Source: an uncultured Allomuricauda sp.
GTDB lineage: Bacteria; Bacteroidota; Bacteroidia; Flavobacteriales; Flavobacteriaceae
Length of the DNA stretch: 15,694 nucleotides
Assembly (NCBI GenBank): GCA_937911965.1
Contig: CALDPL010000467.1
Span: 1-15,694 of the forward strand
Reading direction: 5' to 3'
Each line of letters starts with the position of its first letter. Within the stretch, counting starts at the first letter, position 1. The notes under the pieces were generated by a model, which saw only the letters and a list, made by a program, of their open reading frames with translations, did not search any database and had not been told where the DNA came from. Positions 1 to 14,779 of this stretch are shown here, one piece after another. A program made the position numbers and the translations under genes.

Positions 1-2
1 AA

Positions 3-359
3 ATTCGGGAGGATAACCAGAAAGCAAATGAAGCTAAAAAACAAGCTCAGATTAGTAATCAGGAAAAGTTGGATAGTAAAGTATCCTCTTCGCCGGCTGA
101 GAATAAAACAAGACTTAAGAATTCTTTAGGGGAAGAATATCCGGAAGGCGTTTCTCAGGAAACTTTCAAGCAGAATGATGAAAACGGCCTCATGAAAGCT
201 ATCCTTACCAGGAGAATTGTCGTTAAAGAAGGCCACGGTGATGTTTATGTTCGCACCCAAACCAATTTTGCTACCACCTATTCCAAAAACGGATCTCCAA
301 TAACAGAATATCAATGGGTAAAAGAAACACAGGATGCATCGCTCGTTCGTAATTATTAG
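3..359 (+). CDS. Unrecognised protein, C-terminal part (5' end outside window)
   Basis: An open frame runs in from the left edge and stops with TAG at 357-359, so only the last 118 codons are present. The first in-frame TTG at 69 is probably not the start, because the frame stays open to base 3. The visible N-terminal half is hydrophilic and rich in Lys, Gln, Asn and Glu, which suggests a flexible linker. The last 55 or so residues look folded, with the pattern RRIVVKEGHGDVYV followed by TTYSKNGSPITEYQW. I do not recognise the family. The gene overlaps the apbE start by 26 bases in another frame, so the two are likely co-transcribed and perhaps translationally coupled. There are no membrane segments in the visible part. 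Confidence 0.7.
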   Translation: MREDNQKANEAKKQAQISNQEKLDSKVSSSPAENKTRLKNSLGEEYPEGVSQETFKQNDENGLMKAILTRRIVVKEGHGDVYVRTQTNFATTYSKNGSPITEYQWVKETQDASLVRNY

Positions 360-1383
360 TATTGCGGCTCTTCTCACATTTTCATGTGAAAAACAGTCAG
401 AAAAATCAGTTATTTCAGGAAATACGCAGGGAACGACTTATTCTATTATTGTTCCGGGTGAACAAATTAATTTCAACAAAAAAGAAATTGATTCTGTATT
501 GAATGATTTTGATCTGGCCCTATCGACTTACATAGATAATTCCGTGGTGTCTAAATTGAATAATGCTTCTGATTCGATTTGGGTTCAGGATAAAAGCGGC
601 TATTTTAAGCGTTGCTATGAACTCAGTCAGACTGTATTTCAAAAATCTCAGGGAAGTTTTGACCCGACAGTTTTTCCTTTAATTGATGCCTACGGATTTT
701 TTAAAAACGAAAAGACACCGCCGTCTGATGCGCAGATTACGGCTATTTTGGAGTATGTCGGTTTTGAAGAGAATAAACTTTTCACGATTTCTTTTTCAGG
801 TGACAGCATCCGCCTCATAAAGAAAAACCCAAATCTTAAATTTGACTTTAACGCCATCGCGCAGGGATTGTCTGTGGATGTGCTTGCAAAATTTATCGAA
901 TCAAAAGGTCACGAAGATTATTACGTAGAAATAGGAGGTGAGATCTTCGTCAAAGGGAAAAATCCTGATGGTGAGAAATGGCGAATCGGAATCGACACTC
1001 CGAGTGAAGAGAATATGCCCGGAAAAGATAAACGATCTATCGATAATGTATTAATGATTTCAGGAAAAGCGGTTGCAACAAGTGGAAATTACAGAAAATT
1101 CTATAGCTCCGGTGGAAAGAAATTTTCCCACACACTGGATCCATTGAGCGGTAAAGCAGTAAACCATTCACTCCTCAGCGCCACAGTCATTGCTGAAAAT
1201 TGCGCAATTGCAGACGCCTACGCAACCGTTTTTATGGTTCTCGGTCTGGAGCGCTCAAAATCGTTCCTGGCTGATCATCCGAAATTAAAACTTGATGTTT
1301 ATCTTATTTCCTCGGGTGAAGATGAAACGTACAATTATTTTATCTCTCCCGGACTCGGAAATTATTTGGAAGCTAACAACTGA
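334..1383 (+). CDS. apbE: FAD:protein FMN transferase, ApbE family lipoprotein
   Basis: ApbE enzymes move FMN from FAD onto Thr or Ser of target flavoproteins, such as Na+-translocating NADH:quinone reductase subunits, outside the inner membrane. The 349-residue length is normal. Residues 1-18 form a lipoprotein signal (HRSF, a hydrophobic stretch, then LTFSC with Cys18 as the lipidation site), which supports the ATG at 334. Family motifs follow in order: GTTYSI (33-38), FDPTVFPLIDAYGF (109-122), DFNAIAQGLSVD (171-182), YVEIGGEI (197-204), VATSGNYRKF (247-256), SHTLDPLSGK (265-274) and ADAYATVFMVLG (293-304), which holds the Mg-binding Asp and Thr. At the flavin loop many ApbE proteins have KGxAVD; here it is QGLSVD. 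No NQR target gene is in the window. The 26-base overlap with the previous gene suggests one transcript. Confidence 0.93.
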   Translation: MHRSFVIISIAALLTFSCEKQSEKSVISGNTQGTTYSIIVPGEQINFNKKEIDSVLNDFDLALSTYIDNSVVSKLNNASDSIWVQDKSGYFKRCYELSQTVFQKSQGSFDPTVFPLIDAYGFFKNEKTPPSDAQITAILEYVGFEENKLFTISFSGDSIRLIKKNPNLKFDFNAIAQGLSVDVLAKFIESKGHEDYYVEIGGEIFVKGKNPDGEKWRIGIDTPSEENMPGKDKRSIDNVLMISGKAVATSGNYRKFYSSGGKKFSHTLDPLSGKAVNHSLLSATVIAENCAIADAYATVFMVLGLERSKSFLADHPKLKLDVYLISSGEDETYNYFISPGLGNYLEANN

Positions 1384-1433
1384 TTTCGTTCGCGGAAAGC
1401 GGAACTTTTTATACTTTAGTTGAAAATATCCGT

Positions 1434-1823
1434 ATGAACCGTAAATATCCTCTTTGGCTCAAAATCTGTATCCAATTAATGCTACTGGCCTGCGCCTGCA
1501 CAATTATCATTTTTTACTGGATGAACAGTTCCCTTGAGAGCATGAAAGATCTTCCATTGCCTCTTTTATTCGTCGCGATGCTCTATCTCGCATTACAAAT
1601 TGCCCGTCGCCAGATTTTCATTTCCAACACACTCGTTGATCAGTTATATTACGTCGGATTAGCAGCAATGATCGCACCCATTTTTCTCGCTGATGAAACA
1701 AATACCGGCACTTTCAATCTTGTCACAGACTTCGGAAGCTTTTTCTTTCTCATCCCTGTTATCATTCAATTTGTCCGCTTCAGAAAGAATTTATCGGAAA
1801 TTAAAAATCCCGGTCAATTATGA
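1434..1823 (+). CDS. Small four-helix membrane protein, unknown function
   Basis: A 129-residue protein with four likely membrane segments at about residues 10-29, 41-57, 70-86 and 99-114. A basic end (RFRKN) after helix 4 would face the cytoplasm. I do not recognise a named family and see no catalytic motif. Its stop codon overlaps the start of the next gene in an ATGA arrangement at 1820-1823, the usual sign of translational coupling, so it probably belongs to one operon with mpl. This makes a cell-envelope role plausible but does not prove it. The start is the first ATG after a 50-base spacer from apbE; no clear ribosome-binding site precedes it. Confidence 0.75.
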   Translation: MNRKYPLWLKICIQLMLLACACTIIIFYWMNSSLESMKDLPLPLLFVAMLYLALQIARRQIFISNTLVDQLYYVGLAAMIAPIFLADETNTGTFNLVTDFGSFFFLIPVIIQFVRFRKNLSEIKNPGQL

Positions 1824-3187
1824 ATGTACATTTTATAGCCATCGGCGGAAGTGCAATGCATAATCTCGCAATTGCGTTAAAGGAAAAAGGATATCATGTT
1901 ACCGGTTCAGACGATGAAATACGGGAACCATCCAGGTCCAGACTTCAACGAAAAGGTATTCTCCCTGAGCACGAAGGCTGGAACCCCGATTTGATTCATC
2001 ACGACCTCGATGCGGTAATTTTAGGAATGCATGCCCGCGAAGATAATCCTGAACTGCTCCGAGCCACCGAACTTGGCTTGCGAATTTTTTCCTATCCGGA
2101 ATATTTGTATGAAGCCTCCAAAGATAAAATCCGTGTGGTAATTGGCGGGAGTCATGGCAAAACCTCCATAACAAGTATGTTGCTTCACGCTGCCAAAGCT
2201 CTTCAAAAAGATTTTGATTACATGGTTGGTGCGCAATTAGATGGTTACGATTGCATGGTAAAAATCAGCGATTCGGCAAATGTAATGATCCTCGAAGGTG
2301 ATGAATATCTTAGCTCACCAATCGACAGAAGACCGAAATTTCATTTGTATAAGCCCGATATTGCCTTATTGAGCGGAATTGCCTGGGATCACATAAACGT
2401 TTTTCCCACTTTTGAAAATTATGTTCAGCAATTCGAAGTATTTGTCGATTGCATTCAGGCGGAAGGAAGCCTGATTTACTTTAAAGAAGATCCTGAACTG
2501 CAAAAAATTGTCGCAAAGAAATCGGAACAACTAAAATGTATTCCATATACACATCTCGATTATAGCATTGAAAACGGAAAAACGATCGTTCATTTCAATG
2601 GAAAAGATTATCCTTTGGAAATATTTGGCCGGCACAACCTTCAAAATCTGAATGGTGCGATGCTCATTGCTCTGGAACTTGGTTTTGAGGCTGAAGATTT
2701 CCTGAAAAGTATGCAAAATTTCACCGGAGCAGGAAAAAGACTTGAAAAAGTCGTGGCAAACGAGCATTTTGTGATGTTTAAAGACTTCGCCCATTCACCT
2801 TCCAAACTAAAAGCGACTACAAATGCAGTAAAAGAACAATTTTCCGAGCGCAAATTAATTGCCTGTATGGAATTACATACTTTTTCATCCTTAAATAAAA
2901 GTTTTCTCGAAGAATATAAAGGTTCTATGGAAATGGCAGATGATGCGCTCGTTTATTTCAATCACGCTGTAGTTTCGCACAAAAAACTGGAAGGACTTTC
3001 AAAAGACACGGTTTCAGTAGCGTTTGGAGGTGGGGTGGAAGTGGCGGACTCAACAGAAGAAGTGTTGCAATTCATTAATTCCCGTAATTTAAAAAACAGT
3101 GTTTTGCTGATGATGTCTTCCGGAAACTTTGACGGAATCGATTTTGATAAACTGGGTGAAAAACTTTTGGAAAAGTCTAATATCTGA
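1820..3187 (+). CDS. mpl: UDP-N-acetylmuramate:L-alanyl-gamma-D-glutamyl-meso-diaminopimelate ligase (Mpl), murein recycling
   Basis: Mpl joins the recycled tripeptide L-Ala-gamma-D-Glu-meso-DAP to UDP-MurNAc using ATP in the cytoplasm, which saves several Mur ligase steps. The protein has 455 residues, about the size of E. coli Mpl. It shows the Mur-ligase layout: a Rossmann N-terminal domain opening with HFIAIGGSAMHNLA, the ATP loop GGSHGKTS (109-116), the central domain with LLSGIAWDHINVFP (183-196) and GRHNLQNLNGA (270-280), then FTGAGKRLE (301-309) and KDFAHSPSKL (321-330) leading into the C-terminal domain. MurC is the nearest alternative; the AWDHINVFPTFENY pattern and the N-terminal sequence fit Mpl better. 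The gene starts inside the stop of the preceding membrane protein and overlaps the convergent DUF4199 gene by 11 bases at its 3' end. Confidence 0.9.
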   Translation: MNVHFIAIGGSAMHNLAIALKEKGYHVTGSDDEIREPSRSRLQRKGILPEHEGWNPDLIHHDLDAVILGMHAREDNPELLRATELGLRIFSYPEYLYEASKDKIRVVIGGSHGKTSITSMLLHAAKALQKDFDYMVGAQLDGYDCMVKISDSANVMILEGDEYLSSPIDRRPKFHLYKPDIALLSGIAWDHINVFPTFENYVQQFEVFVDCIQAEGSLIYFKEDPELQKIVAKKSEQLKCIPYTHLDYSIENGKTIVHFNGKDYPLEIFGRHNLQNLNGAMLIALELGFEAEDFLKSMQNFTGAGKRLEKVVANEHFVMFKDFAHSPSKLKATTNAVKEQFSERKLIACMELHTFSSLNKSFLEEYKGSMEMADDALVYFNHAVVSHKKLEGLSKDTVSVAFGGGVEVADSTEEVLQFINSRNLKNSVLLMMSSGNFDGIDFDKLGEKLLEKSNI

Positions 3188-3728
3188 AAATAAAACGTTT
3201 CATTACTATTGCAACAAGAATACTATAAAGGGTGCTTAATAAAATCATTGCGAGCAGCGATACAGTGGTTGTAGTTCCTGCTGAATAAACGGCCCGGGCA
3301 TTTTCACTCATCCTGTCGAAAATTTCTTCTTTCGTCAGAATTTCGAATTCTTCATTTTCCTTTATCGTTTTGAATTCCTGAGGATCATCAAGCATTTTTC
3401 GCACTGCCATTTCCTGCTCTGCAATTTTATGCTCATTGTATCCCGGATCTATTTTACTGTAATATACATATAAGAAGATAGAAACCAATAAGGCGTAAGG
3501 CACTCCGGCAGACATTGCATTTTTGATATCATTGAGCATATTACTTTGTTCTGTTTCCTCTCGTTTATGAAAATAAAGACCCAATGCAATTGCGAGCAAA
3601 ATGAACAAGATATTTATCATAATAATCGGTCGAAGGTCATCGCCGCTTATTCCGCTCCAAAAAAACATCATTTTGGCAAGCATAAAAAGTAAGGCAAACA
3701 GAACTCCGATTTTAACAGTAATACGCAT
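3177..3728 (-). CDS. DUF4199 family membrane protein
   Basis: A 183-residue protein with four likely membrane segments at about residues 5-24, 34-53, 76-91 and 152-176, and a charged central loop (about 92-148) rich in Glu and Lys. The arrangement, including the SAGVPYALLVSIFLY segment, matches the DUF4199 family, which is common in Bacteroidota and has no established function. It lies downstream of rho on the same strand, 56 bases after the rho stop. Its ATG directly follows a hairpin plus T-run (see separate entry), so it may be cut off from rho transcription and use its own promoter. Its last 11 bases overlap the 3' end of mpl on the other strand. A later start, for instance at Met16, would remove helix 1 and is less likely. 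Confidence 0.75.
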   Translation of the reverse strand: MRITVKIGVLFALLFMLAKMMFFWSGISGDDLRPIIMINILFILLAIALGLYFHKREETEQSNMLNDIKNAMSAGVPYALLVSIFLYVYYSKIDPGYNEHKIAEQEMAVRKMLDDPQEFKTIKENEEFEILTKEEIFDRMSENARAVYSAGTTTTVSLLAMILLSTLYSILVAIVMKRFIFRY

Positions 3729-3730
3729 AA

Positions 3731-3762
3731 AAAATCCCGGAACGAATAGTATCGGACCGGGA
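3731..3762 (-). terminator. Hairpin with T-run between rho and the DUF4199 gene
   Basis: On the - strand a six-pair stem TCCCGG/CCGGGA (arms at 3762-3757 and 3740-3735) closes a 16-base loop and is followed by TTTTTT, which ends at the ATG of the DUF4199 gene. It has the form of an intrinsic terminator for rho. The stem is short and the loop long, so efficiency may be low, and it could instead act as a leader hairpin that controls DUF4199 translation. Confidence 0.45.
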
Positions 3763-3770
3763 CAAATTTA
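3763..3770 (-). promoter_or_regulatory. Possible -7 box (TAAATTTG) for the DUF4199 gene
   Basis: On the - strand TAAATTTG fits the Bacteroidota -7 consensus TAnnTTTG exactly. A good TTG -33 element at 17-20 bases upstream is not visible; only a GTTAG occurs there. If active, transcription would begin just before the hairpin that adjoins the DUF4199 start. Short AT-rich boxes also arise by chance. Confidence 0.3.
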
Positions 3771-3784
3771 CTATATCTTTTAGA

Positions 3785-5446
3785 CTAACTGTTCATGGAT
3801 ACGAGGAATTCTTCGTTCGACATGGTGTTTTCCATGTGTGATTTCATAAACTCCATTGCTTCCACCGGGTTCATGTCTGCAATGAATTTGCGCAGCACCC
3901 AGATTCGCTGAAGGATATCCTTGCGAACAAGCAAATCTTCGCGACGCGTACCTGATGCCAATATATCAATTGCCGGATAAATTCTTCGGTTTGAGATCTT
4001 ACGATCAAGCTGCAATTCCATGTTACCCGTTCCTTTAAATTCTTCAAAGATTACTTCGTCCATTTTTGAACCGGTTTCAGTAAGTGCTGTCGCAATAATG
4101 GAAAGCGAACCTCCATTTTCAATTTTACGTGCAGAACCAAAGAAACGTTTAGGCTTGTGTAAAGCATTTGCATCCACACCACCCGATAATACTTTTCCGG
4201 AAGCCGGAGAAACCGTATTGTAAGCCCGTGCAAGACGCGTAATTGAGTCAAGAAGGATACAAACGTCATGTCCGCACTCAACCATTCGCTTAGCCTTTTC
4301 TAGTACCATATTTGCCACTTTTACGTGTCTGTCGGCCGGCTCGTCAAAAGTGGAAGCAATAACTTCAGCTTTTACGGAACGCGCCATATCTGTAACCTCT
4401 TCCGGTCGCTCGTCAATAAGTAGAACGATTAAATAAGTTTCAGGATGATTTGCTGCAATTGCATTCGCAACATCCTTTAAAAGCATTGTTTTACCTGTTT
4501 TAGGCTGAGCCACGATCAAACCCCGCTGACCTTTCCCTATAGGCGTAAATAAATCGATGATCCTAGTGGAATGATTGCCCGTACCCATAAAAAGATTTAG
4601 TCTTTCTGTCGGAAAAAGCGGAGTCAGGTAATCAAAGGGCACGCGGTCGCGGATTTCAGCTGGATTTTGTCCATTGATCGCTTCAATACGTACCAAAGGG
4701 AAGTATTTTTCGCCCTCTTTAGGTGGACGAATACTGCCTCGAACGGTATCACCTGTTTTCAGACCAAACAATTTGATCTGTGACTGGGAAACATAAATAT
4801 CATCCGGCGAAGTCAAGTAGTTGTAATCTGAGGATCTCAGGAAACCATAGCCATCAGACATGATGTCGAGTACCCCTTCACTTTCAATAATGCTGTCAAA
4901 CTCAAATTCAGGTTCCTTGTACCGGTTCTTGAGGTCCTTGTCAAAGTTATTGTTCTTTTTGTCGTGGTGGGTGGGCTTTTGGTGCTGGTGGTTCGCCTGG
5001 GGATGGTTGGACTGCTGGCCTTGGTTCTGTGCTTGGGATGTGTTGGGCCTTCTGCTTGGGGTCTGCGGTTTTTGTGGACCGGAGGGTTTGCTTTCCTTCT
5101 TCGGCGGATGTCCCTTTGAATCCACCTTTCCAACCGTGGGATCCGCTTCCGGAGCCCGCTCCGTAGTATCCGTCCGAGGAGCTTTGGCTTCCGGCGCATC
5201 AGCTCTGGGAGCCCGTTCCCTTCTCGGTTTTGGCCCGGTTTTTTCCTTTTGGGGTTTCGGGGACGATGGCTCGGCGGGAAGGGCTGAGCTTTCGGCCACG
5301 ACTTTTGGGTTGGCAGCCTGTAGATCTAGAATTTGATATACAAGGTCCAGTTTTTTAAGGGTTTTGAATTTGGGCACTTTAAGTTCCTTGGCAATCTCTT
5401 GCAACTCAGGAAGCTTTTTAGCTTTTAGATCTGAAATCTCGAACAT
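3785..5446 (-). CDS. rho: Transcription termination factor Rho, with disordered N-terminal insert; probable mosaic gene
   Basis: Rho is the hexameric RNA-DNA helicase that ends transcription. The 553-residue protein is longer than E. coli Rho (419) because of an insert. Order: Rho_N helical domain (1-45, [16 protein letters not shown]), a Pro/Lys/Gln/His-rich low-complexity segment (about 50-175), the cold-shock-like RNA-binding domain (about 184-258, with [14 protein letters not shown]), then the ATPase: Walker A AQPKTGKT (313-320), [11 protein letters not shown] (344-354), Walker B CILLD (396-400), Q-loop [17 protein letters not shown] (421-437) and R-loop [10 protein letters not shown] (469-478). 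All key parts are present. Such inserts are usual in Bacteroidota; in Bacteroides the Rho insert has been linked to phase separation. The codons up to about residue 175 match the G+C-rich right part of the window, while the ATPase part matches the AT-rich left part, so the gene may be chimeric. Confidence 0.97.
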
Positions 5447-5637
5447 TAAGTAAAGAATAAGTTAAACTTGTCTAATCAGAATAATTGAAGTAAAGGTTAT
5501 TGGGATGCTACTGGAGGATAGGTTTCCTAGGTAAGTACTTCGCTAATAACGCCACAATATTACAAAAAAATTAAAAAAATAAGAGAGCAATTGTCAAAAA
5601 AGACATTTATTTTTGCGTTTTGAAATCGAATTGTACA
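5447..5637. promoter_or_regulatory. Divergent intergenic region and rho leader
   Basis: This 191-base spacer separates rho (-) from the DUF4293 gene (+) and must hold the promoters of both. It is much more AT-rich than the coding DNA to its right. Toward rho, TAATATTG at 5562-5555 on the - strand is one base from TAnnTTTG, which would give a leader of about 100 bases. Within that leader lie two adjacent palindromes, CCTAGG (5526-5531) and AAGTACTT (5533-5540), and an AGGA/TCCT inverted repeat near 5514-5527. Rho controls its own synthesis in some bacteria, so a regulated leader is possible, but nothing here proves it. Confidence 0.35.
5608..5615 (+). promoter_or_regulatory. Possible -7 box (TATTTTTG) for the DUF4293 gene
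   Basis: TATTTTTG fits TAnnTTTG exactly and lies 22 bases before the ATG at 5638, giving a short leader. A TTG at 5591-5593 could be the -33 element, but the 14-base spacing is shorter than the usual 17-20. Confidence 0.4.
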
Positions 5638-6048
5638 ATGATTCAGAGGATTCAGACGTTTTATTTGGTGGTGATGGCCTTGATTTCAGGGATACTCCCA
5701 TTGATTCTGGAACTGTGGAAGGATGGGGATGGCACGGTGGTATTTGCACAGGACACCGCCTGGTCGGGCTTCACATTTTATGGAGCGGCCCTTTTGGCGC
5801 TGATTTCGATTTTTTTGTACAAGAACAGACAAAATCAATTTGTATTGAACAGATTGAACATCATATTGAATCTTTTTTTACTGGGATTTTTCGTTTATCG
5901 ATCGCTAAACTTATCCGGAGAAACTTTGGTTTCACAGAAGGGTATTGGGATGCTGATTCCTGTATTTTCTATCGTTTTTCTGGTCCTGGCCAACAGGGCC
6001 ATCAAAAAGGATGAAGATCTTGTAAAATCTGTTGATCGCTTGCGTTGA
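5638..6048 (+). CDS. DUF4293 family membrane protein
   Basis: A 136-residue protein with four likely membrane segments (about residues 7-25, 43-60, 71-91 and 101-120) and a charged C-terminal tail (IKKDEDLVKSVDRLR). The opening MIQRIQTFYL is the typical start of DUF4293 proteins, so I prefer the ATG at 5638 to the TTG at 5620. The family occurs widely in Bacteroidota and is commonly placed beside rho; its function is unknown. Here it is transcribed away from rho across a shared AT-rich spacer and ends at a strong bidirectional terminator. Its base composition already belongs to the right, more G+C-rich part of the window. Confidence 0.82.
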   Translation: MIQRIQTFYLVVMALISGILPLILELWKDGDGTVVFAQDTAWSGFTFYGAALLALISIFLYKNRQNQFVLNRLNIILNLFLLGFFVYRSLNLSGETLVSQKGIGMLIPVFSIVFLVLANRAIKKDEDLVKSVDRLR

Positions 6049-6077
6049 ATCCAACATCTTAGTAGTATTAGTGCGAG

Positions 6078-6101
6078 AAAGCCCCGAATTTCGGGGCTTT
6101 T
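6078..6101. terminator. Bidirectional intrinsic terminator
   Basis: AAAGCCCCG (6078-6086) and CGGGGCTTT (6092-6100) form a perfect nine-pair stem with a five-base AT loop, followed by T at 6101 and a T-rich stretch. A run of A/T flanks both sides, so it can work on either strand. It sits between the convergent DUF4293 and phosphodiesterase genes, 29 and 5 bases from their stops, where a shared terminator is expected. Confidence 0.85.
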
Positions 6102-6106
6102 GTGTT

Positions 6107-6601
6107 CTATCTCCTTCCCAGTTCCACCACTTCGAGATCGGATATGTTGTCCCCATCGATCACAAATCGGAGCATGGTCCGTATCTGGTGGAATCCCTGT
6201 CTGCCACAGGCACCGGGGTTCATGTGCAACACTCCCAATTTTTTGTCGTTCATCACCTTTAAGATATGGGAGTGTCCACTGATGAAGAGCCTTGGGGGAT
6301 TGCGGTGGATCTCCTCCCGGACCCTGGGATCATAGTGACCGGGATAGCCCCCGATATGGGTGATCCAGACATCCACGTCCTCACAAAGGAAGCGATTGTG
6401 CTGTGGATATTCCCGTTGTATTGTATGATCGTCTATATTGCCGTATACCCCACGGACCGGTTTAATGGCCTTCAATCGGTCCATGATGGAGCGGGTGCCG
6501 ATATCCCCCGCATGCCATATTTCATCGGCCTGTCCCGCATATTTTTCGATGGTTCCGTCCAAGTGGCCATGGGTGTCTGAAAGCAATAAAATCTTGGTCA
6601 T
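6107..6601 (-). CDS. YfcE/MJ0936-type metallophosphoesterase
   Basis: A 164-residue, two-metal phosphodiesterase of the small YfcE/YfcE-like class, which acts in the cytoplasm on phosphodiester bonds; the natural substrate is unknown. All the metal-binding motifs are visible: DTHGH (Asp9, His11), HAGDIG (Asp33), GNID (Asn55), THIGG (His82) and SGHSH (His110 and His112). There is no signal peptide or extra domain. The length fits the family. It stands alone on the - strand between the DUF4293 gene and truA, with the bidirectional terminator just after its stop. The start at ATG 6601 puts the first strand KILLLSD right at the N-terminus, as is usual. Confidence 0.9.
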   Translation of the reverse strand: MTKILLLSDTHGHLDGTIEKYAGQADEIWHAGDIGTRSIMDRLKAIKPVRGVYGNIDDHTIQREYPQHNRFLCEDVDVWITHIGGYPGHYDPRVREEIHRNPPRLFISGHSHILKVMNDKKLGVLHMNPGACGRQGFHQIRTMLRFVIDGDNISDLEVVELGRR

Positions 6602-6660
6602 AACGCTAAAAATATGCTAAAAAGAAAGTGGGTTATCGGTGTTGGAACGGATTGGACTAT

Positions 6661-6676
6661 CTTTAGTGGCCTAAAG
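6661..6676. repeat. Perfect inverted repeat before truA
   Basis: CTTTAG (6661-6666) and CTAAAG (6671-6676) are perfect arms around a TGGC spacer, ending 12 bases before the truA start. A near-consensus -7 box (TATCTTTA, 6658-6665) overlaps the left arm, so the repeat could be an operator or a short leader hairpin. It may also be chance. Confidence 0.35.
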
Positions 6677-6688
6677 TAAGGGATTCCA

Positions 6689-7441
6689 TTGAGATATTTT
6701 ATCCAATTTTCCTATAATGGGAAAGCGTACCACGGATGGCAAAAGCAACCCAATGCCATGAGCGTGCAGGAGGTATTGGAAATGGCCCTATCCACAATTT
6801 TACGGCAAACCATTGAAGTCGTTGGGGCGGGAAGGACCGATGCCGGGGTACATGCCCGGCAAATGTTCGCCCATTTTGATGCCGTTTCCATTGGGGACAA
6901 GGGGGATTTGGCCCATCGCCTCAATGCCCTGCTCCCCGAGGACATCGCAATCCAAAAAATCCATTCCATGGTCCCCGGGGCCCATGCGAGGTTTGATGCC
7001 CTTGAAAGGGCCTATCAGTACCTGTTGATCCGGCAGAAGGACCCCTTTTACAATGACTACGCCCACAGGCTGGACCGGGAACTGGATCTGAAGGCCATGA
7101 ACCAAGCGGCCCAATTTTTGTTGCAGTACAAGAATTTTGAATGTTTTTCAAAATCCAATTCCGATGTGAAGACCTTTGATTGTGAACTTCGACATGCCCA
7201 TTGGGAAGTCGAAGGAGACCTTTGGGTATTTTCGATCAAAGGGGACCGATTTCTTAGAAATATGGTGCGGGCCATAGTGGGAACCCTATTGGAGGTGGGC
7301 ATGGGCAAGAGGACCCCAGGGGACATCCATGAACTGCTGGCCAGCGGAGATCGTGGCCGGGCCGGGGTATCGGTCCCTGCAAAAGGATTATATTTGACGG
7401 AGGTTTCATACCCAAAAGAGCTATTTGATGAGCAAAAGTGA
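6689..7441 (+). CDS. truA: tRNA pseudouridine(38-40) synthase TruA
   Basis: TruA converts uridines 38, 39 and 40 in the tRNA anticodon arm to pseudouridine. The 250-residue length is normal. The N-terminus RYFIQFSYNGKAYHGWQ is typical, and GRTDAGVHA (48-56) holds the catalytic Asp51; the C-terminal half has FLRNMVRAIVGTL, another family hallmark. The start is a TTG: an in-frame TAA lies at 6677-6679 and there is no ATG between, so TTG 6689 is the only reasonable choice and gives the expected N-terminus. The last 14 bases overlap the following ABC transporter gene, which suggests a shared transcript and coupled translation. Confidence 0.95.
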   Translation: MRYFIQFSYNGKAYHGWQKQPNAMSVQEVLEMALSTILRQTIEVVGAGRTDAGVHARQMFAHFDAVSIGDKGDLAHRLNALLPEDIAIQKIHSMVPGAHARFDALERAYQYLLIRQKDPFYNDYAHRLDRELDLKAMNQAAQFLLQYKNFECFSKSNSDVKTFDCELRHAHWEVEGDLWVFSIKGDRFLRNMVRAIVGTLLEVGMGKRTPGDIHELLASGDRGRAGVSVPAKGLYLTEVSYPKELFDEQK

Positions 7442-9182
7442 AGAAACGGGAAAGGCATTTGACATTAGGTTGTTCAAACGGGTCTTCGCGCATACCGCCC
7501 CCTATAGGGGCATCTTATGGTTTGTGGCCATTGTGGCCATACTTTCCGCCATATTTGCAGCCGGGATTCCCATTGTGGTGGAGGACATCATCAACAGTTC
7601 CCTGCCAAGCAAGGATGGGGAACAATTGCTGAACGCCATACTTTTTTGGGCGGCCGTCCTCTTGGGACAGGTCATCACCCAACTTTTGTTCAACTATTAC
7701 GCGAATCTTCTCGGGGAATCGGTGATCCGGGATATCCGTTTAAGGCTCTTTGGGAAAATGACGAGCTTCAAAATGGCCTATTTTGACAAATCCTCCATAG
7801 GGGTATTGGTCACCAGGGCCGTTGCCGACCTGCAGCGTATTGGGGAGATTTTTAGCCAAGGTTTTTTTATGATCATTGCCGATGTGCTCAAAATGTTTTC
7901 CGCGGCCATCATCATGTTGGCTCTGATCGTCTTTGCCATTCTGCCCCTGATCCTGATCGCCACCCGGCTGTTCCAAAGGGCCATGAAAGTGGCCTTTATA
8001 GAGGTACGTGCCCAGGTATCCAATCTCAATTCCTTTGTGCAGGAACGCATAGCGGGAATGAAGATCGTACAATTGTTCAACCGGGAGGAAATCGAAAGGG
8101 AAAAATTCAAGGTCATCAACGAGAAACATCAGAACGCCTGGTTGAAAACGGTCTGGTACAACTCCATTTTTTTCCCCATAGCGGAAATCGCGAACTCCAT
8201 TGGGATCGGCCTGGTCGTATATTTTGGACTGATCCAAAACCTCCAGGATTCAGGCTTGGACAACCAGGGTGCCATTATCGCTTTTTTCTTCCTGATGGAC
8301 CTGTTATTCCGTCCCTTGCGACAGATTGCGGACAAGTTCAACACCCTACAGATGGGTATGGTGGCCGCAAACAGGGTGTTCAAGATCTTGGATACGGACA
8401 GCCATATCGCGGACCAGGGCAAACTGGTCAGGAGCGACGTAAGGGGAGATCTTGAATTCAGGGATGTCCGTTTTGGCTATGCCCCGGGGGAAGAGGTACT
8501 GCACGGCATATCCTTCAAGGCAAAGGCCGGGGAGACCGTTGCCATAGTGGGGGCCACCGGTGCGGGAAAATCAACCATCATCAATCTGTTGAATCGTTTT
8601 TACGAGATCGATTCTGGGAAGGTCCTGGTGGATGGGACCGATATCAAGGAATTGACCCTACATTCCCTAAGATCCAATATTGCGGTCGTATTGCAGGACG
8701 TATTCCTTTTCGCCGACACCATTGCCAACAATATTTCGTTACGTGACCCTTCCGTTGACAAGGAACAGATTGAAAATGCGGCCAAACAGATCGGGGTGCA
8801 CGAATTTTTCACCAGCCTCCCCGGAGGGTATCAATACAATGTCAAGGAGCGCGGGGCCATGCTTTCCAGTGGACAGCGTCAATTGATCGCCTTTCTTCGG
8901 GCCTATGTGAGCAATCCGAGCATCCTGATCTTGGATGAGGCCACCTCTTCAGTGGATACCTATTCCGAACAATTGATCCAAAGGGCCACCGATAAGATCA
9001 CCCAAGGAAGGACCTCCATCATCATTGCGCACCGATTGGCCACGATCAAAAAGGCGGATAAGATCATAGTCATGGACAAGGGACAGATCGTCGAAACAGG
9101 GACCCATCGGGAACTCTTGGAAAAAGGCGGGTACTACAACGATCTCTATATGGCGCAGTTCATGAGCGAAGAAGTCGCCTAG
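7428..9182 (+). CDS. ABC exporter half-transporter (MsbA-like), TMD-NBD fusion
   Basis: A 584-residue homodimeric-type exporter: membrane domain (about 1-310), then ATPase domain (about 340-580). ATPase motifs are complete: Walker A GATGAGKS (375-382), Q-loop Gln423, signature LSSGQ (479-483; LSGGQ in most proteins, a common variant), Walker B ILILDE (499-504) and H-loop His535. The coupling-helix region VQERIAGMKIVQLFN is well conserved. Substrate is unknown; lipids, peptides or drugs are possible. The ATG at 7428 is used rather than the TTG at 7425; it lies within the last codons of truA. The segment joining TM3 and TM4 seems about five residues short (see findings). The stop is three bases from the convergent cdaA stop. 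Confidence 0.92.
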   Translation: MSKSEETGKAFDIRLFKRVFAHTAPYRGILWFVAIVAILSAIFAAGIPIVVEDIINSSLPSKDGEQLLNAILFWAAVLLGQVITQLLFNYYANLLGESVIRDIRLRLFGKMTSFKMAYFDKSSIGVLVTRAVADLQRIGEIFSQGFFMIIADVLKMFSAAIIMLALIVFAILPLILIATRLFQRAMKVAFIEVRAQVSNLNSFVQERIAGMKIVQLFNREEIEREKFKVINEKHQNAWLKTVWYNSIFFPIAEIANSIGIGLVVYFGLIQNLQDSGLDNQGAIIAFFFLMDLLFRPLRQIADKFNTLQMGMVAANRVFKILDTDSHIADQGKLVRSDVRGDLEFRDVRFGYAPGEEVLHGISFKAKAGETVAIVGATGAGKSTIINLLNRFYEIDSGKVLVDGTDIKELTLHSLRSNIAVVLQDVFLFADTIANNISLRDPSVDKEQIENAAKQIGVHEFFTSLPGGYQYNVKERGAMLSSGQRQLIAFLRAYVSNPSILILDEATSSVDTYSEQLIQRATDKITQGRTSIIIAHRLATIKKADKIIVMDKGQIVETGTHRELLEKGGYYNDLYMAQFMSEEVA

Positions 9183-9185
9183 GGA

Positions 9186-9971
9186 TCACCCCAGATCTTT
9201 TTTGATGATTTTGATCAGTTCCTCCGCTCCCTTGAAGGGAACAAACTGGCTGTCCTTAATATAGGATATCGATCCCGTTTCCTCACTGACCACCAAACAA
9301 AGGGCATCGGTCTTTTCCGCAATTCCCATGGCGGCCCTATGTCTCAACCCGAAACGAAGGGGGATGTTCCGGTCATTGGACACGGGCAGGATCACCCTGG
9401 TGGCCGTTATAAAATTTTCCTGGATCACTATGGCCCCATCGTGCAGGGGACTGTTCTTAAAGAAAATACTCTCCAGTATGGGTTGGGTGACCTGGATGTT
9501 CATGGCGTCCCCTGTGGTTTTGATAAAGTCCAGGGAATTGTTCCTTTCGATCACGATCAGTGCACCGGTCCTGGTGGAGGACATACGTTCACAGGCCCCG
9601 ACTATGGCCTCCACATCGGTATTGGTTGGAAGCTGGTCCTGTTTTAGGAACTTGAAGCGTTTGAGGAAATTTCGTTTGGAGGCAAAATTGGTGGAACCCA
9701 CCATCAACAGGAATTTGCGGATTTCCTGTTGGAAGACTATGATCAGGGCAATTAGGCCGATGTTCATAAAGCCCCCCACCATGCTGCTGATCATTTTCAT
9801 CTGAAGCAGTTCGGTGAGTTTCCACAAGGCCCATACGATGACGATCCCGGTGAATATATTGATGGCGACGGTCCCCTTGACCAATTTGTACACGTAGTAG
9901 AGCAGGGCGGCAACAAGGACGATGTCAATGATATCCGTTATCTTGAATTCGAGAAAATTTAAAAATTCCAA
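9186..9971 (-). CDS. cdaA: Membrane diadenylate cyclase CdaA (c-di-AMP synthesis)
   Basis: CdaA makes the second messenger c-di-AMP from two ATP; in many bacteria it controls potassium and osmolyte balance. The 261-residue protein has three likely N-terminal membrane helices (about 12-30, 34-55 and 67-85), then a DAC domain with the active-site motifs DGA (178-180) in LHDGAIVI and RHR (210-212) in GLRHRAAMG. Length and order fit the CdaA/DacA class rather than DisA. It lies 42 bases downstream of folP on the same strand, so the two are probably co-transcribed. No c-di-AMP phosphodiesterase or CdaR-type regulator is in the window. The 3' end meets the ABC exporter gene tail to tail with three bases between. 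Confidence 0.94.
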   Translation of the reverse strand: MEFLNFLEFKITDIIDIVLVAALLYYVYKLVKGTVAINIFTGIVIVWALWKLTELLQMKMISSMVGGFMNIGLIALIIVFQQEIRKFLLMVGSTNFASKRNFLKRFKFLKQDQLPTNTDVEAIVGACERMSSTRTGALIVIERNNSLDFIKTTGDAMNIQVTQPILESIFFKNSPLHDGAIVIQENFITATRVILPVSNDRNIPLRFGLRHRAAMGIAEKTDALCLVVSEETGSISYIKDSQFVPFKGAEELIKIIKKDLG

Positions 9972-10013
9972 GTGCGGTGTTTTTGTAAAATTAACAAAAA
10001 TGGGAATATTCCA

Positions 10014-10847
10014 TCAGAGTGCGTTCGCCTTCAAAACTTCCACAAGTTTAACACATTCCACGGCTTCTTTCACATCGTGGACCCTAATAATATTGGCCCC
10101 CCTGAGCAAGGCAATGGCATGAAGGGCCGTACTGCCGTTGAGTGCTTTCACCGGGGAGGTTTCCAAAACCTTGTATATCATTGATTTTCTGCTGAGCCCG
10201 ATCAATAGGGGCAGCCCAAAGTGCCGGAACAGATCCAAATGGTTCAAGAGGGTATAGTTCTGCTGGATCGTCTTGGAGAAACCCAGGCCGGGATCCAGGA
10301 TGATATCGTTGATCTTGAAGGACACCGCCTCGTGGACCTTTTCGGAAAAATAGTGTGATATTTCCTTGATCATATCATCGTATTGGGTACCCTGTTGCAT
10401 GGTTTTTGGATCGCCCCGCATATGCATCATGATATAGGGGACCCCGAGCCCGGCCACAGTGGAAATCATTTCAGGGTCCAGGTTCCCCGCGGATATATCG
10501 TTGATCAGAGCGGCGCCATGGGCCACACCGGCCGAAGCGACTTTGCCGCGGAAGGTGTCGATGGAAATCAAGGTATCGGGGAAGTGCTTGAGGACCAGAT
10601 CCAGCATGGGGAGCAGGCGCCGGAGTTCCTCCTCCTCGGAAATTGGGTCCGCTCCCGGCCTGGAACTGTATGCCCCCATATCGATAAAGGTGGCCCCCTG
10701 CTCGAGCATGGCCTCCACCCGGGCAAGAACGGATGCCTCGTCCCTGTACGATCCTCCGTCATAAAAGGAGTCCGGTGTCAGGTTCAGAATGCCCATTACC
10801 CTGGGAGTGTCCAGATCCACCAATTCACCTTTGCAGTTAATGGTCAT
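10014..10847 (-). CDS. folP: Dihydropteroate synthase FolP
   Basis: FolP joins p-aminobenzoate and the pterin pyrophosphate to make dihydropteroate in folate synthesis; it is the sulfonamide target. The protein has 277 residues, as expected. Visible motifs: GILNLTPDSFYDGG (19-32, Asn22), GAYSSRPGA (58-66), SIDTFR (95-100, Asp97), INDISAG (115-121, Asn116), DPGLGFSK (185-192), GLSRKS (217-222, Lys221) and RVHDV (255-259). All pterin- and phosphate-binding residues seem present. It is the first gene of a likely folP-cdaA pair and is divergent from the DUF1599 gene, with 96 bases between, which contain a notable hairpin pair. Confidence 0.96.
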   Translation of the reverse strand: MTINCKGELVDLDTPRVMGILNLTPDSFYDGGSYRDEASVLARVEAMLEQGATFIDMGAYSSRPGADPISEEEELRRLLPMLDLVLKHFPDTLISIDTFRGKVASAGVAHGAALINDISAGNLDPEMISTVAGLGVPYIMMHMRGDPKTMQQGTQYDDMIKEISHYFSEKVHEAVSFKINDIILDPGLGFSKTIQQNYTLLNHLDLFRHFGLPLLIGLSRKSMIYKVLETSPVKALNGSTALHAIALLRGANIIRVHDVKEAVECVKLVEVLKANAL

Positions 10848-10856
10848 AAAGAATAG

Positions 10857-10883
10857 TTGCTTTGTCGGGTTTCATTATCTTTG
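10857..10883 (+). promoter_or_regulatory. Likely Bacteroidota promoter for the DUF1599 operon
   Basis: TTG at 10857-10859 and TATCTTTG at 10876-10883 are separated by 16 bases, close to the TTG-N17-20-TAnnTTTG form of Bacteroidota housekeeping promoters. The -7 box is an exact match. It would drive the + strand run beginning at 10944, with a start site near 10887-10890 and a leader of roughly 55 bases. Confidence 0.55.
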
Positions 10884-10885
10884 GC

Positions 10886-10916
10886 CAGGTGCATGTCCTG
10901 CACCTGAAAACAGGAC
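10886..10916 (+). promoter_or_regulatory. Two overlapping, mutually exclusive hairpins in the DUF1599 leader
   Basis: Hairpin A is a perfect eight-pair stem, CAGGTGCA (10886-10893) with TGCACCTG (10899-10906) and a five-base loop. Hairpin B pairs GTCCTG (10895-10900) with CAGGAC (10911-10916). B uses the loop and part of the 3' arm of A, so both cannot form at once. The site adjoins the predicted start of transcription and lies between folP and the DUF1599 gene. It may be an RNA switch, or an operator read as a DNA palindrome. No T-run follows, so it is not a plain terminator. Confidence 0.5.
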
Positions 10917-10943
10917 GGAATTTACGCAAATTGCAATTGATAT

Positions 10944-11525
10944 ATGCAACGAACCTCCCAACAATACGACGCAGTGATACAAAGCTGTAGGGAATTGTTC
11001 TTAAAAAAAGGCCAGGACTACGGGACCGCATGGCGGATCTTGCGCCTGCCTTCCCTTACGGATCAGATATTTATCAAGGCACAGCGAATCCGTGGCCTTC
11101 AGGGGAACGCGGTGCAAAAAGTGGACGAGGACCAGGAGTCCGAGTTCATCGGAATCATCAATTATTCGATCATGGCATTGATCCAAATAGAAAAAGGGGT
11201 CGCCGAGCAGCCCGATTTGACCCTTGACCAGGCCCTGTCCCTATATGACGATGAAGTGGCCGTCACCAAGAAACTCATGGAAGACAAGAACCACGATTAC
11301 GGGGAGGCCTGGAGGGAGATGCGGGTGAGTTCCCTTACCGATCTGATTTTGCAAAAACTGTTTCGGGTCAAAGAAATCGAGAAGAACCTGGGGGCCACTT
11401 TGGTCAGTGAGGGGGTGGACGCCAACTACAGGGACATTGTCAATTATGGTGTCTTTGCCCTGATTCACCTGGGAGGGGTCCCCAATGGACATTCTCCCTC
11501 CGGTACTGCCGAAAAAAACCAATAG
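10944..11525 (+). CDS. DUF1599 domain protein with internal duplication
   Basis: A 193-residue soluble protein made of two copies of one module, at about residues 8-82 and 102-176. Each has the same order: K-x-x-DYG-x-AWR, then SLTD, then a basic helix, then I-I/V-NY-x-x-x-ALI. For example QDYGTAWR (24-31) matches HDYGEAWR (117-124), and IINYSIMALI (71-80) matches IVNYGVFALI (165-174). This is the DUF1599 pattern. The family has been grouped with nucleotide-modification-associated domains, but I know of no proven activity. The strictly kept Asp, Tyr, Trp and Arg look like functional rather than structural residues. It heads the run leading to tpiA, prmA and clpS. The last 15 residues are a loose tail. 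Confidence 0.82.
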   Translation: MQRTSQQYDAVIQSCRELFLKKGQDYGTAWRILRLPSLTDQIFIKAQRIRGLQGNAVQKVDEDQESEFIGIINYSIMALIQIEKGVAEQPDLTLDQALSLYDDEVAVTKKLMEDKNHDYGEAWREMRVSSLTDLILQKLFRVKEIEKNLGATLVSEGVDANYRDIVNYGVFALIHLGGVPNGHSPSGTAEKNQ

Positions 11526-11558
11526 CCCTTGCTTAATGAATATTATATTCCACCAAAT

Positions 11559-12656
11559 ATGAAGTACTTAGTCTGGATTTCCCGGATCATCGTGGGCCTT
11601 TTGTTCATCATCAGTGGCCTGATCAAATTGAACGACCCCATGGGATTTTCCTTCAAATTGGAGGAGTACTTCAGCATAGGGGTGCTGAACCTGCCCTTTT
11701 TGATGCCCATGGCACTGGGCATATCCATCGTCCTGGTCATAGTGGAAGTGCTGTTGGGGATATTCCTCCTTCTGGGCTTCAAGCCCAAGTTCACCCTTTG
11801 GAGCCTGTTGTCAATGATCGTGTTCTTCACCTTTTTGACCTTTTATTCCGCCTATTTCAACAAGGTGACCGACTGCGGCTGTTTTGGGGACGCCATCAAG
11901 TTGACCCCTTGGGAATCCTTCGCTAAGGACGTTCTGTTGTTGGTCCTGATCCTGGTCCTGATCATCGGCCGTAAGCATATCCGACCTCTATTGGCCCCGA
12001 GGGCCAATTGGATCGTGGCAGGTTTGTCCCTTTTGGCTTGTATTTGGTTCGCAACCCACGTGCTGAACCACCTGCCCTCGGTTGATTTCAGACCCTATAA
12101 GATCGGGGCGAACATTCCGGAGGGAATGGGGATTCCCGATGGGGCCCCGCAGCCCATCTATGATTATGCGTGGAAGTTCATGGTGGACGGAGAGGAAAAG
12201 GTGGTGGTGACCCAAGGCGATTATCCGAGCGTTGAGGGGGAATTCATCGATGTGGAAACCAGCTTGGTCCAAAAGGGCTACGAGCCTCCCATACATGATT
12301 TTACCATTGAACGGGAAGGGGAGGACCATGCCGCAGAGTTGATGCGCGAAGAAAAATTGGTGTTGGTGGTCGCCTATGATCTGGCAAAGAGCAAGAAGGA
12401 AGGATTTGAGGACTTGGCCCAAACGGTGAGATCGGCAAGGGAAAAGGGCTATAAGGTCATAGGGGTATCGGCATCCAATGAGCAGCAGGCCCAGGTGATA
12501 AGGGACCAATACGGATTGGAGCTGGATTTTTATTTCACCGATGAGACCACCCTTAAGACCATCGTGCGTTCCAACCCGGGAATCTTGGTGCTCCGGCAGG
12601 GGACCATAGAGCAAAAGGTCCACTACAACGATTTTGACAAACTGAATTTCGAATAA
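11559..12656 (+). CDS. BT_3928-like DoxX/MauE membrane protein with thioredoxin-like C-terminal domain
   Basis: A 365-residue protein with two parts. Residues 1-165 hold about five membrane helices (5-22, 50-72, 80-100, 122-137, 149-166) of the DoxX/MauE kind, with a CGCFGD motif (106-111) after helix 3, as in related proteins that may exchange thiols. Residues about 245-362 look like a thioredoxin-type fold (VLVVAYDL, VIGVSASNE, SNPGILVLRQGTI) but have no CxxC pair, so it is probably not a reductase. The BT_3928 family is widespread in Bacteroidota and its function is not established. The ATG at 11559 is preferred to the TTG at 11529 because it gives a proper first helix, KYLVWISRIIVGLLF. 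It lies 33 bases after the DUF1599 gene and 21 before tpiA, so one operon is likely. Confidence 0.82.
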   Translation: MKYLVWISRIIVGLLFIISGLIKLNDPMGFSFKLEEYFSIGVLNLPFLMPMALGISIVLVIVEVLLGIFLLLGFKPKFTLWSLLSMIVFFTFLTFYSAYFNKVTDCGCFGDAIKLTPWESFAKDVLLLVLILVLIIGRKHIRPLLAPRANWIVAGLSLLACIWFATHVLNHLPSVDFRPYKIGANIPEGMGIPDGAPQPIYDYAWKFMVDGEEKVVVTQGDYPSVEGEFIDVETSLVQKGYEPPIHDFTIEREGEDHAAELMREEKLVLVVAYDLAKSKKEGFEDLAQTVRSAREKGYKVIGVSASNEQQAQVIRDQYGLELDFYFTDETTLKTIVRSNPGILVLRQGTIEQKVHYNDFDKLNFE

Positions 12657-12677
12657 CAACTAGAAGCAAAACAGAAA

Positions 12678-13427
12678 ATGAGAGCAAAAATAGTAGCCGG
12701 AAACTGGAAAATGAACAAGACCCAAAAGGAAACCGAGGCCCTGCTCTCGGAGCTTTTGAAGGAAGTGCCCAGGCAGGGGCCCCAGGTAATCGTGGCCCCG
12801 AGCTTCGTCAATCTGGCCGCCGCCAAATCCATTCTGGGGGAATCCGGGATACAGGTGGCCGCACAGAACATGCACCAGGCGCAAAGCGGGGCCTATACCG
12901 GAGAGGTTTCCGCACAGATGTTGTTGGACATCGGGGTGGATACCGTTATACTGGGGCATTCCGAGAGAAGGTCGCTTTTTGGGGAAACCGATGAGCTTTT
13001 GGCCCAAAAGGTAAAGGCCGCCCTTGAAGCGGACATGAAAATAATTTTCTGTTTTGGGGAAGAGCTGGAAGACCGCAAGTCTGGAAGGCATTTTGAGGTG
13101 GTCGGCTCCCAGTTGAACAATGCCCTTTTTGAACTTGGGGCCAATTCCTGGAAGAATATAATCTTGGCCTACGAACCGGTATGGGCCATTGGGACCGGGG
13201 AGACGGCCAGTCCCGAACAGGCCCAGGAAATGCACGCCTTCGTCAGGGAGTCCATTGCCAAGGCCTTTGGAGCTTCGGTGAGCGAAGGGGTTTCGGTGCT
13301 CTACGGCGGAAGTGTAAAACCTTCCAATGCCGCGGAGATTTTCTCCAAACCCGATGTGGACGGGGGGCTGATCGGTGGGGCATCCCTGCTGGTCCCTGAC
13401 TTTGTGTCCATAATCAAATCCATTTAG
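12678..13427 (+). CDS. tpiA: Triosephosphate isomerase
   Basis: This glycolytic enzyme interconverts dihydroxyacetone phosphate and glyceraldehyde 3-phosphate in the cytoplasm. The 249-residue protein is of normal size. Catalytic residues are Lys11 (GNWKMNKT), His94 (ILGHSERR) and Glu166 (AYEPVWAIGTG); the flexible loop 6 IGTGETAS (171-178) and the phosphate-binding YGGSVKPSNA (209-218) and GGASL (233-237) are intact. It sits 21 bases behind the DoxX-like gene and 20 before prmA. The ATG start gives the usual short N-terminus MRAKIVAGNW. Codons are strongly G/C-ending with many GGG glycines, as in the right part of the window as a whole. Confidence 0.98.
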   Translation: MRAKIVAGNWKMNKTQKETEALLSELLKEVPRQGPQVIVAPSFVNLAAAKSILGESGIQVAAQNMHQAQSGAYTGEVSAQMLLDIGVDTVILGHSERRSLFGETDELLAQKVKAALEADMKIIFCFGEELEDRKSGRHFEVVGSQLNNALFELGANSWKNIILAYEPVWAIGTGETASPEQAQEMHAFVRESIAKAFGASVSEGVSVLYGGSVKPSNAAEIFSKPDVDGGLIGGASLLVPDFVSIIKSI

Positions 13428-13447
13428 ACGCCTAAGGGAACAGCTCC

Positions 13448-14275
13448 ATGATCTATCTCGAATACGATTTCAAGGTAACCCCCCCGGAACCTTTTACCGA
13501 TATCCTGACGGCGGAACTGGGAGAACTCGGTTTTGAAAGCTTTTTGGTGCAGGACAGCGGGGTGTTGGCCTATATCCAAAAAACCGATTGGAGGGAAGGG
13601 ATGTTGGATGGGCTTTTTGTCCGGCAATTGCCCGAAGTGGAGATCGATTTTTCCTGGAAGGAGATACAGCCCCAAAACTGGAATGCCCAATGGGAACGCA
13701 ATTTCCATCCGATCCAGGTGGGGGACCAATGCGTGGTCAGGGCCCCCTTTCACCAGGTCCCGCAGGTGGAATACGATATCGTGATCGAGCCCAAGATGAG
13801 CTTTGGTACCGGCCACCACGAAACCACCCATATGATGCTTCAGCACATCCTGGAGACGGATTTTAAGGGAAAATCCGTCCTGGACATGGGTTGTGGAACT
13901 GCTGTATTGGCGATTCTGGCCAAAAAAAAGGGCGCGACGACAGTGGTTGCCATAGATATTGACCGATGGTGCTATTTGAACGCCCTTGAGAACGTGGAAC
14001 GGAACCAATGTGCCGATATCGAGGTCCATCAAGGGGATCGTAACCTATTGGGAAATCGGGGATACGATATTATACTGGCCAACATCAACAGGAATATTTT
14101 ATTGGAGGATATTCCAATCTACGCCAAATGCCTCAATCCCAAAGGAGCTCTTTTTTTGAGTGGCTTCTTTATGGAGGATCTGGATGCCATTTCCGAAGAA
14201 TGTGGGGACAATGGGCTGAAATTTGAAAAAAAACTGGACCGCAATAACTGGATTGCCGTAAAATATGTAAATTAG
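13448..14275 (+). CDS. prmA: Ribosomal protein L11 methyltransferase PrmA
   Basis: PrmA trimethylates amino groups of ribosomal protein L11 using S-adenosylmethionine. The 275-residue protein has an N-terminal substrate-recognition domain (about 1-100), then MSFGTGHHETT (117-127), the AdoMet loop VLDMGCGTAVLAI (144-156), the acidic residue of VVAIDID (166-172) and the NPPY-like ANINRNIL (211-218). All are standard. The protein is slightly shorter than E. coli PrmA (293). It follows tpiA after 20 bases and precedes clpS by 21, and it is likely to be on their transcript. ATG at 13448 gives the expected start of the first strand, YLEYDFKV. Confidence 0.96.
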   Translation: MIYLEYDFKVTPPEPFTDILTAELGELGFESFLVQDSGVLAYIQKTDWREGMLDGLFVRQLPEVEIDFSWKEIQPQNWNAQWERNFHPIQVGDQCVVRAPFHQVPQVEYDIVIEPKMSFGTGHHETTHMMLQHILETDFKGKSVLDMGCGTAVLAILAKKKGATTVVAIDIDRWCYLNALENVERNQCADIEVHQGDRNLLGNRGYDIILANINRNILLEDIPIYAKCLNPKGALFLSGFFMEDLDAISEECGDNGLKFEKKLDRNNWIAVKYVN

Positions 14276-14296
14276 AAAGACTTAAACTCCACAATC

Positions 14297-14572
14297 ATGG
14301 ACCCACGGGAAAAGCAACTTGAGGATGTCCTTCTTGAGGAAGGGACGGCGGACTTAAATGAAATTGTACTGTTCAACGATGATGTGAATACCTTTGACCA
14401 TGTCATTTCGACCTTGGTGGAAGTGTGCGGTCACTCCTTTGAGCAGGCGGAACAGTGTTCCTTGATTGTACATTACAATGGGAAATGTACCGTAAAGACC
14501 GGGGAGTATTCCGAACTCAGGCCCCGATGCACAAAATTGCTTGAGGCCGGGCTCAGTGCCGAGATTGTCTAA
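14297..14572 (+). CDS. clpS: ATP-dependent Clp protease adaptor ClpS
   Basis: ClpS binds the N-terminal domain of ClpA-type unfoldases and delivers proteins with destabilising N-terminal residues (N-degrons). The 91-residue protein has the usual flexible N-terminal tail (1-21), then VLFNDDVNTFDHVI (24-37), which carries the N-degron-binding Asn and Asp residues, and VHYNGKC (58-64), whose His59 matches E. coli His66. The C-terminal strand has GEYSELRPRCTKL. No clpA is in the window. It is the last clearly housekeeping gene of the + strand run; just after its stop lies a dense C-rich tract (see separate entry). Confidence 0.95.
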   Translation: MDPREKQLEDVLLEEGTADLNEIVLFNDDVNTFDHVISTLVEVCGHSFEQAEQCSLIVHYNGKCTVKTGEYSELRPRCTKLLEAGLSAEIV

Positions 14573-14573
14573 T

Positions 14574-14605
14574 CCCCAGCCCCCCAGATCCCCCGACTTG
14601 CCCCC
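14574..14605 (-). other. Putative G-quadruplex motif after clpS
   Basis: The + strand has four C-runs of 4, 6, 5 and 5 bases (14574-14577, 14580-14585, 14590-14594, 14601-14605) separated by 2, 4 and 6 bases. The - strand therefore meets the strict G-quadruplex rule, with four G-runs of at least four and short loops; the + strand could form an i-motif. It begins two bases after the clpS stop codon, within a 207-base spacer that has no other gene I can support. Confidence 0.6.
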
Positions 14606-14629
14606 TGACTTACCTCTTTTGCATTTGGT

Positions 14630-14646: not shown

Positions 14647-14779
14647 GTAATACCTATGTCAAAACTGAAATGGAAAATAATAAAATGGGGAACTTCGGGA
14701 TTCCATGTGCCATGACAAACCCATATAAGGGAAACAGGCCCCTATGGACCGAGGAATCCCCAAAATTCCCCAAGGAGCG

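Follow-up and report, generated by a model that had tools for sequence, protein, structure and literature searches.

Does the rho gene of this contig belong to a single genome? Seventeen genes lie in the window, by which we mean the whole 15,694-nucleotide stretch analysed; they form two blocks that meet at rho, and reading frames are cut at both window ends. The rho frame (3785–5446, minus strand) is 553 codons long and runs unbroken over two joints, with Rho_N (residues 6–46), Rho_RNA_bind (190–262) and ATP-synt_ab (294–498) Pfam domains all within it. A preliminary description took rho for a mosaic of two lineages or an assembly joint, with the break where the gene is highly conserved; such a break is what identities, neighbourhoods, trees and composition all point to. 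In our assessment the window is probably a chimeric contig with two joints in rho, a metagenome mis-join of about three bacteria. The rho gene likely combines sequence from a Muricauda-like genome, from a rho of Sphingobacteriaceae type and from a lineage that stands beside Crocinitomicaceae. A plain mosaic of two lineages proved incomplete, as residues 197–310 fit Sphingobacteriaceae and not Crocinitomicaceae.

Left of rho lie a DUF4199 gene (3177–3728, minus strand), mpl (1820–3187, plus), a hypothetical gene (1434–1823, plus), apbE (334–1383, plus) and, at the window's left edge, the end of an open frame (3–359, plus). To the right follow, in order, DUF4293, metallophosphoesterase, truA, ABC transporter, cdaA-like, folP, DUF1599, MauE/DoxX-like, tpiA, prmA, clpS, a hypothetical gene and the end of a proline dehydrogenase gene, which is truncated by the window's right end (15400–15693). 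Pfam searches with ten window proteins supported ApbE, DUF4199, Rho, DUF4293, metallophosphoesterase, DUF1599, MauE/DoxX and proline dehydrogenase and returned no family for the two hypothetical proteins; mpl, truA, the ABC transporter, cdaA-like, folP, tpiA, prmA and clpS were named by reading translations and are presumed identities. No tRNA genes were found in the window.

Composition changes sharply within rho. G+C is ~0.40 to the left of the break and ~0.49 to the right. When the synonymous third positions of 4558 codons were scanned for one step, with 300 codon shuffles as a control, the best change point fell at 4915, inside rho, with 4753–4930 lying within 3 log units; the gain was 139.1, compared to a maximum of 8.3 in the shuffles, and GC3 was 0.351 to the left of the change point and 0.615 to the right. 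Along the gene, GC3 is 0.54 in the first rho piece, 0.41 in the middle one and 0.34 in the last. The N-part exceeds the C-part by 0.20, compared to a mean difference of -0.006 (sd 0.056, highest 0.13) across 99 other rho genes, none of which has a step of this size. The parts of the window left and right of the break are separated by a tetranucleotide distance of 0.437 and a dinucleotide distance of 134. As controls, 67 fetched loci with a minimum length of 15694 bases were cut like the window (some of them come from the same genomes), and none shows as large a difference in either measure or in G+C. The step at the joint thus exceeds the normal variation of these 99 genes and 67 loci, and both the change of composition and codon choice reported inside rho and the check by G+C and tetranucleotide profiles proposed with it hold up. 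Between the break and the window's left end, 4.4 kb away, neither composition nor gene content returns to the right-hand type.

One could ask whether a single lineage might produce this step through a codon bias confined to part of rho, whose N-part, rich in P, N, Q and K, is of low complexity and fast evolving (long branches in the N-part tree). We give this reading next to no credence: regional codon bias of rho as such is ruled out by the 99 control genes, the amino-acid identities change lineage abruptly and the flanking genes differ too.

The right piece (4865..15694) comprises rho codons 1–194 and the right-flank genes, and is assigned to a Muricauda/Allomuricauda type by best matches, gene order and a truA tree. 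Window Rho residues 1–196 match P0002, an intact Muricauda-type Rho present on 6 contigs from four sources (up to 58.9 kb), at 196/196 aligned residues, which bears out the Muricauda character ascribed to the N-terminus; from residue 197 to 553 identity to P0002 drops to 76.5%. The sole difference within residues 1–196 is a 5-residue gap behind codon 144 of rho (~5014), where the protein is rich in glutamine and asparagine; strain variation or a collapsed near-repeat may account for it. Searches for the genome carrying P0002 gave no close match in 361 scored genomes from one family draw (best 73%; 36 further genomes of the draw unscored), a best identity of 90% in the Muricauda genus (full-length matches, 70 of 71 genomes matching) and one distant match in viral contigs.

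The first joint was located with diagnostic columns, defined as those in which Muricauda-type and Sphingobacteriaceae rows have no residue in common. At residues 170–194 the window is of Muricauda type in 11/11 such columns and at residues 212–292 of Sphingobacteriaceae type in 20/20, with residue 197 matching none of the lineages; the joint therefore lies after residue 194 and before residue 212, at 4814..4864 (minus strand). The preliminary description had put the change at residues of about 175–240, which is the right region, although the lineage switch is narrower. Trees of the two parts were built from 50 hand-picked rows (45 loci, 4 proteins and the window). The window groups with P0002 and P0003 in the N-part tree (support 99), and in the C-part tree a branch with support 100 separates it from all 27 Flavobacteriaceae-type rows. 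By comparison, rho is of Flavobacteriaceae type in both N- and C-part in 13 aligned Muricauda-type loci.

Genes right of rho agree with its N-part, having their best matches in Muricauda-genus loci and the same gene order. The window's truA groups with Muricauda, and a grouping with Crocinitomicaceae was rejected (AU p 0.020).

Among six Muricauda-genus loci (L121–L126), DUF4293 is present in 6/6, and 5/6 carry further right-flank genes in window order as far as the stretch reaches; left-flank genes had no match in the 8.3–10.0 kb 3' of rho in these loci. The window therefore resembles Muricauda/Allomuricauda Rho loci (P0002, L001, L121–L126) in residues 1–194 and the right-hand neighbourhood, and differs from them from residue 212 on and in the left-hand neighbourhood. 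A wider set comprised the best 80 of 591 confirmed loci, ranked by how closely they resemble the complete Rho of the window, and many of them have short flanks; because the loci were selected by similarity, per-family numbers in the set are uninformative on frequency. DUF4293 was matched in 66 of these loci and DUF4199 lay directly 3' of rho in 8, with mpl within 2 kb in 4 of the 8. One locus of the 80, from a Flavobacteriales MAG (L045), has DUF4199 3' and DUF4293 5' of rho (29% and 38% identity), so that both neighbourhoods may go back to one older arrangement, and in L027, a locus from Flavobacteriaceae, mpl is found 5.1 kb 3' of rho. Because of these two loci the combination of neighbours alone is no proof, and gene order was dropped as a stand-alone argument.

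The C-part was split for separate analysis because the window's branch in its tree is long (0.19, compared to a median of 0.02). Sphingobacteriaceae rows were three loci so titled (L055, L073 and L077) and L172–L178, from the family of L055's genome; a row was labelled Crocinitomicaceae-type if its genome came from the family of L050's genome (titled Crocinitomicaceae) or by tree position. Across residues 197–310 the window is identical to L172 and L177 at 106/114 positions (up to 93%) and to any of 16 Crocinitomicaceae-type rows at no more than 86/114. The relation reverses further on: identity with Crocinitomicaceae-type rows reaches 120/120 at residues 311–430 and 116/123 at 431–553, compared to at most 109/120 and 96/123 with ten Sphingobacteriaceae rows. 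The window differs from P0126 at 29 positions in 197–310 and 7 in 311–553, and from L172 at 8 and 44. As a control, other Rho sequences were compared in 5011 pairs that are not independent, each with 15 or more differences; none reached the window–Crocinitomicaceae ratio and one was as low as the window–Sphingobacteriaceae ratio.

Diagnostic columns place a second switch between residues 301 and 337 (4543–4439): 11/12 columns at 197–301 are of Sphingobacteriaceae type, residue 197 being the exception, and 13/13 at 337–540 of Crocinitomicaceae type. The middle piece (4544..4813, minus strand; residues 212–301) covers a large share of the RNA-binding domain and extends into the beginning of the ATPase domain, and the second joint (4439..4543, minus strand; after residue 301 and before 337) contains QPKTGKT, which we take to be the P-loop. 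Trees of the two segments used 47 rows, with L076 left out. For residues 197–310 the window falls with Sphingobacteriaceae (support 99), and AU tests did not reject a placement with Crocinitomicaceae (p 0.087) or Flavobacteriaceae (p 0.125). For residues 311–553 it falls with Crocinitomicaceae at a support of 77, which is not firm; Sphingobacteriaceae (p 0.005) and Flavobacteriaceae (p 0.028) groupings were rejected, and a position just outside the Crocinitomicaceae rows was not (p 0.179), in agreement with the Mpl tree. Overall, the window is like Sphingobacteriaceae Rho in residues 197–310 and differs from it in the rest of the protein, and it is like Crocinitomicaceae-type Rho (L050, L068, L131, P0126) in residues 337–553 but only 72–75% identical at 197–310. 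Its N-part is 12–28% identical to the 16 Crocinitomicaceae-type rows, compared to 85–90% for the C-part.

These results revise the earlier view in two respects. The two-lineage mosaic missed the Sphingobacteriaceae-type piece at ~212–301 and the second switch at 301–337, and the motif [12 protein letters not shown], described as Cryomorphaceae type, lies within that piece (residues 197–310: 106/114 with L172). Just ~337–553 and the left flank are Crocinitomicaceae-like. The separate trees that the preliminary description had called for set the N-part with P0002/P0003 and the C-part apart from Flavobacteriaceae-type rows, and those of flanking genes put truA with Muricauda and Mpl beside Crocinitomicaceae.

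The left piece (1..4438) holds rho codons 337–553 and the left-flank genes, and its lineage lies beside Crocinitomicaceae. In an Mpl tree that includes Sphingobacteriaceae rows, the window's Mpl, P0240 and P0241, the last placed as sister, group beside the sampled Crocinitomicaceae (together 100/100); Muricauda (AU p 0.00016) and Sphingobacteriaceae (p 0.00017) groupings were rejected. A separate contig of 2689 bases encodes P0240, which shares 448/455 residues (98%) with the window's Mpl; the next best among the matches listed is 72%. P0240 and the window's Mpl are the same over residues 1–342, with all 7 differences within 343–423, an uneven spread that could reflect strain recombination or a further small join. 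Gene order in L131, of the Crocinitomicaceae family, is that of the window's left side (rho–DUF4199–mpl–hypothetical–apbE). Twelve loci of this family, L131 among them, were picked by Mpl, 5 of them without rho in the fetched stretch; all 7 that include rho have DUF4199, and also mpl 3' of rho at 2 to 10 kb, and none has a match to the right-flank genes. Muricauda genomes have an Mpl of 55–57% identity in 8/10 cases, and in two of them (G671 and G674) one contig carries both mpl and rho, ~190–200 kb apart. Sampling of the left-hand lineage is very sparse: the best Mpl match was 68% in 240 Crocinitomicaceae-family genomes, and the one match at a strict threshold in 399 genomes of the order was also 68%.

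Could the second switch be older than the contig? A single mis-join at 4814–4864 would suffice if the switch at 4439–4543 were an old natural recombination in the left lineage's rho. The sparse sampling of that lineage, with its Mpl beside the sampled Crocinitomicaceae, is consistent with this, as is GC3, at 0.41 and 0.34 in the middle and last pieces against 0.54 in the first. No recent donor of the middle piece is seen either, the best nucleotide identity being 80% in 399 Sphingobacteriaceae-family genomes (7 at E <= 1e-75). However, among the best 120 of 7999 proteins scored for residues 241–553 there was none of that combination, no parent of the last rho piece and nothing above 90% identity besides the window, and two switches within conserved stretches of a single gene are most simply put down to one process. 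We regard a single joint as rather unlikely. No flank of Sphingobacteriaceae type turned up in the window, where the grouping of Mpl with that family was rejected.

Alternatively, the region could be real, homologous recombination or transfer having swapped the 3' part of rho and its neighbours for DNA of other families. The unbroken frame, the position of the joints in conserved stretches, as recombination needs, and the status of rho as a shared core gene all suit this, but the frame stays open because the pieces are joined at homologous positions, which is the same under artefact and recombination. Against it stand at least three family signatures in one gene, the intact P0002 with its identical N-part and the uniformly Flavobacteriaceae-type rho of the 13 Muricauda-type loci; right-type composition and genes also do not resume on the left, where a second boundary could lie beyond the window. 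We consider such a swap very unlikely, and find it highly improbable that a living bacterium has a hybrid Rho in which recombination among three Bacteroidota families swapped RNA-binding and ATPase modules at highly conserved motifs, in a genome where Muricauda-type and Crocinitomicaceae-type neighbourhoods are joined. Three lineage signatures with two clean switches, differing flanks, a composition step and an intact right-side allele are direct observations, and the evidence favours an artefact over natural recombination because of the three signatures in one gene, the intact right-side parental allele and the lack of return to the first composition. Intact parental sequence without the join is P0002 for the right side, and the left has just an Mpl relative (P0240) on another contig. 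We infer that the window is a metagenome record and that the joining arose during assembly or library preparation rather than inside a living cell; the window is then probably no real genome region, its hybrid gene is untrustworthy and, under the chimeric-contig reading, the hybrid Rho exists in no organism. Should the contig be chimeric, any gene tree, bin or gene-transfer claim that relies on it is wrong, and protein-database entries of the hybrid Rho need a flag.

Under the mis-join of about three bacteria, a walk from the Muricauda-like genome on the right, in metagenome assembly or a preceding amplification, would enter rho and pass to a rho of Sphingobacteriaceae type in the conserved stretch [14 protein letters not shown]. 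In or close to the conserved P-loop stretch the walk would change over once more, to the rho of the lineage beside Crocinitomicaceae, and then stay on that genome to the left end. An assembly joint requires sequence common to both species, and both joints lie in stretches of near-identical protein sequence across families. In the codon bins that contain the joints, rho genes from these lineages have exact words of at least 17 bases in common, counted on related rho genes and not on the parents' own DNA: 24 such runs begin in codons 200–219 (up to 130 Muricauda–Sphingobacteriaceae pairs) and 24 in codons 300–319 (up to 140 Sphingobacteriaceae–Crocinitomicaceae pairs), including a 28-base run at codon 312. 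Other parts of rho, above all codons 420–479, have more of these words, so the joints are possible at their sites but not singled out.

According to two reviews, chimeric contigs arise from k-mers shared by related species or from conserved regions of co-occurring species (PMC7299287, PMC4782286). Read as a mis-join, the window is like the contigs described there in combining several genomes, in having its joints in sequence conserved across taxa and in its composition step. Unlike them, its parents are of different families rather than close species or strains, and it probably has two joints within ~430 bases. A short third piece can hide in this way between two joints in one conserved gene, where a test for a single change point misses it.
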